Below, piece by piece: positions 36,618 to 39,729 of a stretch of 53,817 nucleotides of DNA (position 1 is the first letter of the stretch; every line of letters begins with the position of its first letter). The stretch covers positions 1 to 53,817 of the forward strand of contig JAJZWS010000016.1 of assembly GCA_021846565.1 (NCBI GenBank). The letters run 5' to 3'. Made by a program: the position numbers and the translations under genes. This DNA comes from Bacillota bacterium (lineage in GTDB: Bacteria > Bacillota > Sulfobacillia > Sulfobacillales > JAIMBI01). The notes beneath the pieces were generated by a model. It saw only the letters and a program-made list of their open reading frames with translations. It did not search any database and was not told where the DNA came from.

Positions 36618-36750
36618 CAGGCGAACCTCCTCTGGATCGGGTAGACCAGTTTTTACGGGGGCTCCGAATCGTTTCACGAGTTTTTCGCCGGGGACGGCCG
36701 TCGAAGGCAACACCCTGGCGTGCCCAGGCTCGCGACACGCGTCATTCAGG

Positions 36751-36779
36751 GTTATGGTTTGGCGAAAACATTGTGTGCA
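36751..36779 (-). promoter_or_regulatory. Candidate sigma-A-type promoter
   Basis: On the minus strand TGCACA (36774-36779) and CATAAC (36751-36756) are separated by exactly 17 bp, each matching 4 of 6 consensus positions. The site is 134 bp upstream of the hydrolase start at 36617. The surrounding stretch is more AT-rich than its flanks. Confidence 0.35.
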
Positions 36780-37446
36780 GAGTAGCACAGAGGCCGTCCA
36801 CCGTATAGGAACGAAACTTCCAGCCCCCTTCGAGCGCTTCGGGGCAGCCCATCCGAGCGCGCGGGAACGGGCCGTCGGCTGCGAAGGGGACGTCGACACA
36901 GACTAGCCCGAACCGAACCGGCGCCGCACCCCGCCTTTCTAACTCTTGCCGGCGGCGTGTTTAGACAAAATTCCCCGCACCGTCCCCGAGTGGAGGCGCT
37001 TGTCGGAGAGCACGCGGTCGTTGGCACAGGCGGCCAGTTCTTTGCCCTCGGCGCTCATGCCCGCACGCGCCGCCTCCGGCGCGTGCGGGGTTTACCCCAA
37101 ACCGGGTCCGCTTGGTCAATCACGCAGGATCCCCGCACCGCGCGGTGCACGGCCAGCCCCCGTCCTCGACTTGCACCCAGGCCACCACGGGCCCTGCCTC
37201 CACCAGGCCGTACCCACTGGCGTCCTCGCCACCCAAAACCTCTTGGCTCGCCCACCCGGTCGCGCCCGGGCCACGCCCATCACCTTGAGGGCCTGGGTCG
37301 ACTGCGGGAGCCTCGTACATCTGGTGATGCGTCGGCGACCGATCCTGGTCATGCACGGCGACTTGTGCCCCCTCCTCCCGTGCATCCTCTGGGACGTGCC
37401 CCATCTCTCTGCGGCCTCGGGTCGTTTTATGGAATCCGAGCCGGGG
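36780..37446. other. Long region without a confident gene, containing a strong hairpin (37060-37089)
   Basis: No frame gives a convincing protein. A minus-strand frame (37120-37404) is open but unlike anything I recognise and may be decayed. CCCGCACGCGCC and GGCGCGTGCGGG at 37060-37089 form a perfect 12-bp stem with a 6-nt loop. No T-run follows on either strand, but it could terminate or insulate transcription. The 3' end of the 37447 gene reaches into the right edge. Confidence 0.4.
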
Positions 37447-39246
37447 TCACTTTGCTGCTGCCAGTGTTTCGGCCCACGCTCCGCCGTCCACCTCGGCCAC
37501 ATGGCTCACCGCGAGTTGCACCACGCGGCGAAGCCGATTCTCCAGCTGCGCCCGTGCCAGAGACGCCCCGGGGCGTTTGGCCTCCACCCAGATGATGGCG
37601 GGCGGGCTCTCCGCGTCGCCCGCGACCAGAATGACGCCATCCAGCTCGGCGCGCTCCTCGGACCCCGCGTACAGTACCGTTTGCCCGCCGTAGGCCAGGA
37701 CCGGACCGCGTGTGTGCAGTGCCTCGCACACGGCCGCCAGCACCCGTACCTCATGGAGAACGGAGGCGTGGACTGTGTCGGTCGCCGCATCAACCCACTG
37801 GCGGAGTGGCGGCGCCACGTCCAGGGCGCGCCGCCCCCAAAATACCGGCTCGGGGTGACCCCCCAGGGGGTCGGACCGCACCGCGGGCACGAGGCGATCG
37901 CCCAGCGCTGCGCGCAGCGCGTAGAGATAGAGGGCGCGCGCACTGGACGTGCCGGCACCTGCCGGGGCGGCCGGGTCCGTCGCGCGGTGAAGCACGGCCT
38001 GCCAGAATCCCGCCGCCACCCGGGCCCACTGATTCGCAGGGAGACCGGCAACCGGGGCAAATGCGATCCCCAGCGTTTGCGAACTCGCGTCCCAGTCGCA
38101 CGCCGCGCGAGACCGACGGTCGCTCTTATGTCCCATGGCCTCCTCCAAGGCGACCGTGTTGCGCCACACCGGCCGACGCTCGGCCAGGGTCAACTCCAGC
38201 GCCACCGTCCGGCGGGCGTCCACATCGGAGGCCGCCGCCGCCGCCAGCGTGCCGTGCAGCACGTCGCTCAGCTTGGAGCCTCGCTGGGGATAGATCGCCG
38301 AGACCCAACCGTCTGGCTGCAAAAGCTGGTCGCGGGCGCGGGTGATGCGGGTGACTCGCTCCCGGGTGATGGCCGCCATCGACAAGAGCGCCAGAGGAGA
38401 TTGGTACACTAGGCGCCGCATCACCTGGTTCAACTCCAGAAGCGCCATTTGAAACAGCGACGTGTCCAGCATGTACGCCTCGGGGTTGCGGACCAAATCG
38501 TCTTCCAAGGTGCCGAACTCGATCGAGAAGGGGGCTGGCGTGTAAAGCGTGTCCAGGGTCAGATACGCGATGCGGCGCACCTGCTGGCCCAACTTCTGAA
38601 ACCGTCCCCATTTCGGATTCTCGTCCGGCGCCAGCTGGTGCCACAACACCTGGCGGCCGTACTGCACCACCTGGGGATCCGCGTCAAAACTGTGCACCTG
38701 CTGGAGCCACAGCCACGCGAGGTACAAGTGGAGTCCGTAGGGGTCAAACTGCTGCAGTGCGATCCCAAACGCGGGCGCCGCGTCGCCCAGCAGGTGTTGA
38801 AAGGCCTGGCGCAGGTCCGGATCGCTAGCCAGCACGGCCAGTACCGCGCGCTCCCCCGCCAGCGTCTCCGGGAGATGTCCCACGTTGGCCAGCAACACCG
38901 CGGTTTGCAGGACGTCCACCCCGGTGGGGGGCTTCGCTCCCTCCCGTTTCGGCAGGTCCCGCACCCCTCCCGCCAGCCCGAGGGTGGGCTCGCTCACGCT
39001 TTTCGCCTTCGCGAGGCGGTCCAAGAGGTACCACTGCAACAGAAGATACTCATACCGCGTATGATGGGCCCCGGGATAGAAGTAGCGGAGGTTTCCCAGC
39101 TGGTCCGTCTGCTTGAGCCGTGTGATGAGCTGCCCCTCGGCTTCGAAAAGGTCTGCCAGCGCACGAGTGTAGCCGCCCACGTGAATGCTGAGCCGTCCAT
39201 GCTTAGGAAAATGATACAAAATCTCGTCCGGCATGCGTTGGTCCAT
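37447..39246 (-). CDS. Unrecognised protein: HD-like helical region without the HD dyad plus C-terminal PD-(D/E)XK motif
   Basis: 599 residues from the ATG at 39246 (GGGAGG ten bases upstream; a TTG six bases earlier is possible). Near residues 58-130 the arrangement HHTRYEYLLLQWYLLDRL ... VLLANVGHLPET mirrors HD phosphohydrolases (H-x-R-Y-E-H-S ... L-L-H-D-I-G-H), but the HD pair is AN, so phosphohydrolase activity would be lost. The middle is helical without a known motif. The C-terminus has ELDGVILVAG ... AIIWVEAKRPGA: Asp536, Glu555 and Lys557 in D-(X18)-E-A-K form a PD-(D/E)XK nuclease signature preceded by Glu534. Transcribed alone. A nuclease with a structural HD-like sensor, perhaps in defence, is one reading; function is unknown. 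Confidence 0.6.
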   Translation of the reverse strand: MDQRMPDEILYHFPKHGRLSIHVGGYTRALADLFEAEGQLITRLKQTDQLGNLRYFYPGAHHTRYEYLLLQWYLLDRLAKAKSVSEPTLGLAGGVRDLPKREGAKPPTGVDVLQTAVLLANVGHLPETLAGERAVLAVLASDPDLRQAFQHLLGDAAPAFGIALQQFDPYGLHLYLAWLWLQQVHSFDADPQVVQYGRQVLWHQLAPDENPKWGRFQKLGQQVRRIAYLTLDTLYTPAPFSIEFGTLEDDLVRNPEAYMLDTSLFQMALLELNQVMRRLVYQSPLALLSMAAITRERVTRITRARDQLLQPDGWVSAIYPQRGSKLSDVLHGTLAAAAASDVDARRTVALELTLAERRPVWRNTVALEEAMGHKSDRRSRAACDWDASSQTLGIAFAPVAGLPANQWARVAAGFWQAVLHRATDPAAPAGAGTSSARALYLYALRAALGDRLVPAVRSDPLGGHPEPVFWGRRALDVAPPLRQWVDAATDTVHASVLHEVRVLAAVCEALHTRGPVLAYGGQTVLYAGSEERAELDGVILVAGDAESPPAIIWVEAKRPGASLARAQLENRLRRVVQLAVSHVAEVDGGAWAETLAAAK

Positions 39247-39381
39247 GGCCAATGCGCCTCCCTCACGTGAAGCGGTCTAATTGTGCCACAATATTACACA
39301 CGCGGTCTTGCCAGCAGGGATTCTGGGATCGGGCAGCGAATATCGCCTGCCCACCGAGACATGACCCGGAGGAGGCGCATT

Positions 39382-39729
39382 ATGGCCACCTTGGTTCGAG
39401 AAGGCGAAACCCTGTGGCTCAGGCTGTCGACAGCGGAGAAATTGGAGAGCGTACACGGAGATCTCCACGCGCCAGTGGACAGCGTGGAAACTGCCACGGT
39501 GCTGGACGATGCCATACACGCGGTTCACGGCATGAAGCTGCCCGGATCGCACCTGCCTGGGGTCTTTGCCATGGGCACGTTTCTGGATGGCCACGAGCGC
39601 ACGTTTGCCATCGTGCACCACCACCCCACGGGGGGCGTCCGCGTCACCTTCCGCGGCGGCAGCAGCTATACCCAGTGGATCGTGACCGCAGACGACCCGG
39701 CGGCGGTGGTGGCGTCCCTCGGCCTCTAA
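39382..39729 (+). CDS. Small conserved-looking hypothetical protein
   Basis: 115 residues; ATG at 39382 with GGAGGAGG six bases upstream. The sequence runs LWLRLSTAEKLESVHGDLHAPVDSV, TVLDDAIHAVHGMKLPG, GVFAMGTFLDGHERTFAIVHHHP and FRGGSSYTQWIVTADDP. It resembles small actinobacterial-type hypotheticals with a PH-like beta pattern (x-x-V-H-G-D-x-x-V-P ... G-T). No membrane segment, no catalytic motif. Divergent from the 37447 gene, with about 135 bp between starts. I know no function. Confidence 0.7.
   Translation: MATLVREGETLWLRLSTAEKLESVHGDLHAPVDSVETATVLDDAIHAVHGMKLPGSHLPGVFAMGTFLDGHERTFAIVHHHPTGGVRVTFRGGSSYTQWIVTADDPAAVVASLGL

Follow-up and report, generated by a model that had tools for sequence, protein, structure and literature searches.

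The window (the whole stretch of 53,817 nucleotides analysed) encodes a protein of an unnamed family in which a SAMHD1-like core that has lost its metal site is coupled to a predicted PD-(D/E)XK-type nuclease domain, and whose members recur beside several types of defence gene. We consider it probable (about 0.6) that the gene product is a nuclease of restriction or anti-phage defence whose activity the dead SAMHD1-like module gates. The gene is an intact open reading frame on the minus strand, with its ATG at 39246 and its stop codon at 37447-37449, and specifies 599 amino acids plus stop (Table 1). An earlier note on this DNA had interpreted it as an HD-like sensor joined to a nuclease in an antiphage context, an interpretation that is supported by residue conservation, the absent dyad, the fold model and the neighbours of relatives. 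The motifs on which that interpretation was built lie where they had been numbered: HHTRYEY at residues 61-67, LLANVGHLPE at residues 118-127 with Ala120-Asn121 at the position of the HD pair, and Asp536-X18-Glu555-Ala-Lys557 near the C-terminus.

Table 1. Positions of the gene and its features in the window.
Feature	Residues	Window position	Strand	Basis
Whole gene: dead SAMHD1-like core with PD-(D/E)XK-like C-terminus		37447..39246	-	Orthologues, dN/dS 0.15-0.23
Ribosome-binding site AGGGAGG, 10 nt before ATG		39257-39263	-	From sequence
SAMHD1-like HD core, metal site lost	about 6-440	37927..39231	-	AF2 model, VIA, hhalign
RYEY: Arg64 (= SAMHD1 Arg164) kept, Tyr67 for ligand His167	64-67	39046..39057	-	Alignment
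LLANVGH: Ala120-Asn121 for His206-Asp207, His124 (= His210) kept	118-124	38875..38895	-	Alignment
Arg224 for Asp311; Tyr228 and Asp232 at Tyr315/Asp319 positions	224-232	38551..38577	-	Global hhalign
C-terminal PD-(D/E)XK-type nuclease domain (predicted)	474-596	37459..37827	-	High-pLDDT element order, invariant residues
Helix-1 Glu	Glu499	37750..37752	-	Invariant
Asp in E534-x-D536-G	Asp536	37639..37641	-	Invariant
Glu-x-Lys	Glu555-x-Lys557	37576..37584	-	Invariant

An AlphaFold2 (AF2) model built on a 13-row alignment of the family was confident (mean pLDDT 87.8, pTM 0.88); an earlier model from five sequences had a poor N-terminus and gave meaningless structure matches. In VIA comparisons, residues about 6-440 of the model match SAMHD1 and the bacterial YdhJ-type dNTPases (COG1078) with Z about 17 and rmsd 3.5-4.8 over aligned lengths of about 300-360 residues, a predicted likeness of fold that spans about 350 residues, and in a structure search with the whole model the list of matches was filled by SAMHD1. 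Searches with phmmer and profiles gave weak pointers to SAMHD1-type HD proteins, and profile-profile alignment by hhalign against real HD proteins gave a P value of 2e-9, placing RYEY onto RFEH and AN onto HD. Because of this P value and the Z of about 17 between model and SAMHD1, we take the HD resemblance, as judged from profiles and predicted structure, to be true homology.

The iron ligands of SAMHD1 are His167, His206, Asp207 and Asp311, while Arg164 and His210 contact phosphates (PMC7311409). By alignment, His167 is replaced by Tyr/Phe67 and His206 by Ala/Ser/Tyr120 in every member covering these positions, and Asp207 is replaced by a fixed Asn121 (12/12 members covering it). Asp311 corresponds to Arg224 in 13 of 14 rows, and the remaining row is a fragment that ends there because of an IS66 break; this assignment, from a global hhalign alignment with true HD proteins, relies on equal Tyr-Asp spacing and is less certain than that of Asn121. 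Since none of the four HD metal ligands is retained, the core is predicted to be no longer able to hydrolyse nucleotides. The absence of the HD dyad pointed out previously thus extends to every member covering it, but the loss is wider than was then described, since it takes in all four metal ligands and occurs in a SAMHD1-type dNTPase core. Conserved pocket residues could be taken to mean that hydrolysis persists by a metal-independent or different-metal route, but we judge this very improbable given that the position of His215 has been lost along with the four ligands.

Other features of the SAMHD1/YdhJ-type enzymes are retained, including the QLG and PGAxHTR motifs and the equivalents of Arg164, His210 and Asp319. 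Arg64 and His124, which correspond to the substrate-contact residues Arg164 and His210, are present in all 12 members covering them, as are Asn121 and Thr128, and Asp232 is kept in every member that covers its position (its equivalent is labelled Asp319 by counting on from Asp311; PMC7311409 writes Glu319). Unlike the SAMHD1/YdhJ-type enzymes, the family carries an extra C-terminal nuclease domain and apparently does not keep the allosteric Gln142 and His376 positions, where the window protein has Thr42 and Ser283, the His376 position lying in a low-confidence part of the alignment. Because several substrate-contact residues are kept, the dead pocket has probably not lost the ability to bind a ligand, either a nucleotide or a nucleic acid. 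The H206R/D207N variant of SAMHD1 does not hydrolyse but retains the capacity to bind dGTP, and has been used for that reason (PMC8497992); by analogy with this variant, and from the retained contact residues, we infer a ligand-binding pocket. That the ligand is a nucleotide is not assured, because some members lack Gln49 and the allosteric positions of His376 and Gln142 appear not to be retained.

The C-terminus is apparently a PD-(D/E)XK nuclease with its catalytic set intact. Residues 494-586 are modelled with high pLDDT in the alpha-beta-beta-beta-alpha-beta core order of this type: a helix at 494-510 (bearing Glu499), strands to 541 (Glu534-x-Asp536), a strand at 550-556 (Glu555-x-Lys557), a helix at 561-576 and a strand at 580-586. 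Glu499, Asp536, Glu555 and Lys557 are invariant in 13/13 C-terminal sequences, among which Glu534 is conserved save in the Peribacillus copy. The nuclease site proposed earlier is therefore conserved and more than a coincidental likeness, and the model fits a SAMHD1-type N-terminus as well as a C-terminus of PD-(D/E)XK order. The predicted core order and the E...D...ExK residues are shared with superfamily members such as HamA, Mrr and type II enzymes; in contrast to these, the domain is not recognisably related in sequence to any named family and is tethered to a dead SAMHD1 core. Profile searching of the PDB with this domain gave no match, and one C-terminus gave a weak Pfam match to HamA (E 0.032). 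A stand-alone 152-aa copy of the nuclease domain is found on the Priestia plasmid pBMG4 (L076:6204-7516), where it clusters with a DEAD helicase, an AAA ATPase and a DUF6602 protein.

The family, which was gathered by iterative profile searches, is unnamed, rare and mobile. In-depth searches covered the public genomes of one phylum together with plasmid, phage and viral collections. Orthologues occur in the three other genomes searched of the window's genus (73-87% identity) and one was found in a sister genus (33-34%), while distant members at 15-21% identity are present in other Bacillota classes (G267, G158, G524, G408, G514, G308 and G449). Their distribution is very sporadic, each class having one or two. 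The copy in G449 (25-34% identity; L051:9902-12239) is split by an insertion encoding IS66-like proteins, both halves remaining open. Further copies are carried by IMG/VR contigs and a Peribacillus plasmid; plasmid searches gave only this copy and the truncated Priestia copy, and tblastn of phages found nothing. No member matches any named family in Pfam, NCBIfam or PHROGs, weak matches to BacteriocIIc_cy, HTH_Mga and similar being judged chance, and PADLOC gave no match for the five members scanned (the window protein and four relatives). We found no description in the literature searched of an architecture combining a dead SAMHD1 core with a nuclease.

Within the window's genus the gene occupies a conserved locus in the genomes compared, the surrounding region is syntenic between congeners, and dN/dS values of 0.15-0.23 indicate purifying selection. 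The values are lowest in residues 1-310 (0.10-0.18), and therefore decay of the dead HD part is not indicated. G006 is a sister species of G004 in which about the first 48 codons of the orthologue are left (L013 / L024:9545-10572). The remnant is followed, at the same conserved site, by what looks, on our own reading, like a DUF1778-GNAT toxin-antitoxin pair.

Several distant relatives adjoin defence genes, as the earlier suggestion of defence islands would have it, although the window copy itself lies in no visible defence island and neither it nor the copies in G002 and G003 have an adjacent defence gene. These neighbourhoods are locus-by-locus readings rather than an enrichment over random genes. 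In G524 the order is DrmD, a further ORF, a DrmMI/IIG methylase, a DruE-like helicase and, 94 bp downstream on the same strand, the family gene. This locus (L048 and L058) combines DISARM-like (DrmD, DrmMI) and Druantia-like (DruE) proteins in one gene run and may represent an undescribed composite system. In G449 a type II methylase, HaeIII, Vsr, a Z1 helicase and DUF4420 precede the family gene, which is followed by SIR2 and HerA; a 549-aa ATPase-like gene ahead of these resembles MutL/paraMORC on our own reading. The gene lies between a phage integrase and HsdM and HsdS in G267, and follows a methylase and a T5orf172/ResIII/Eco57I protein (helicase-methylase) on an IMG/VR contig (L074). It is divergent from a Septu-like pair (PtuA-like ATPase and HNH) near an integrase in L075, precedes a Cas4/RNase H/Upf1-type helicase by 49 bp in G004, and is found between serine recombinases and a prophage end in G308. 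Some relatives thus have the gene neighbours of DISARM, Druantia or R-M loci, but the family protein matches no PADLOC model for such systems and its position resembles that of an accessory nuclease.

In the gated-nuclease reading that we favour, the nuclease would be released when the dead pocket gains or loses its ligand, or when the protein meets a partner helicase or methylase complex, and would then cut invading (or all) DNA. The family protein would be the cutting effector of restriction or anti-phage loci in several lineages, and the window's genus would hold a single-gene version. A more specific and more tentative form of this reading is that the protein is a naturally dead SAMHD1, having Asn at the Asp207 position as in the H206R/D207N mutant, whose dedicated role is to sense dNTPs or modified nucleic acid and to switch the fused PD-(D/E)XK nuclease; it would then be a new type of sensor-effector, acting both alone and as the exchangeable nuclease of several defence systems. 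The Clover system offers a partial parallel, in that a SAMHD1-type HD protein (CloA) acts in anti-phage defence, a role that the window family may share; CloA, however, is an active dGTPase, whereas the window family is dead at the metal site and has a nuclease as its putative effector. If the gated-nuclease reading is true, it would link animal-type dNTPase immunity to bacterial restriction, and the family permits a clear question, namely which ligand a SAMHD1 pocket devoid of metal binds and whether DNA cutting is under its control.

The main rival is gating by a helicase. Here the dead core would be a mere scaffold or a platform for binding DNA or protein, and the nuclease would be controlled by a partner helicase or by methylation state, with no small ligand; helicase gating is described for Hachiman HamAB (PMC12278908). 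In several distant lineages a helicase, a methylase or both lie next to the gene on its strand, which is in keeping with this, as are the weak HamA match of one C-terminus and the binding of oligonucleotides, including phosphorothioates, by SAMHD1 at its allosteric sites (PMC7854603), though the corresponding positions (Gln142, His376) appear not to be retained in this family. We nevertheless hold it to be the less likely explanation, since residues at the former substrate-contact positions are invariant, a constraint not needed in a mere scaffold, and since no helicase adjoins the gene in the window genus. Comparable doubt attaches to an abortive-infection toxin, whose nuclease would degrade the host chromosome or RNA when a phage alters the dNTP pool. 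SAMHD1-type proteins respond to dNTPs, raised dTTP activates CloA in Clover (PMC12265719), and the stand-alone copy does not itself carry any self/non-self mark, but several relatives sit with methylases, a better fit to restriction based on self/non-self discrimination.

Presence in all four window-genus genomes searched, together with purifying selection and a locus that is conserved among the genomes compared, might also be expected of a housekeeping nuclease of DNA repair or replication unrelated to phages. We regard this as improbable: the family is very sporadic elsewhere, a prophage, viral contigs and a plasmid carry copies, and in a sister species a toxin-antitoxin-like pair replaces the gene at the same site.

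The gene had also been described as standing beside insertion-sequence debris, which is unsupported, as the flank on its 3' side (36620-37447) occurs only once in the genome. We also dropped a suspected DUF885 remnant in the window, for which tblastn gave no match. Upstream of the gene, at 39280-39292, is the perfect palindrome ATTGTGCCACAAT, for which no occurrence is expected by chance in the window; it is a possible operator, and the orthologues in G002 and G003 have it upstream as well, with half of it kept in G001. A divergent gene encoding 115 amino acids lies at 39382-39729, and likewise adjoins the orthologue in G002 and G003.
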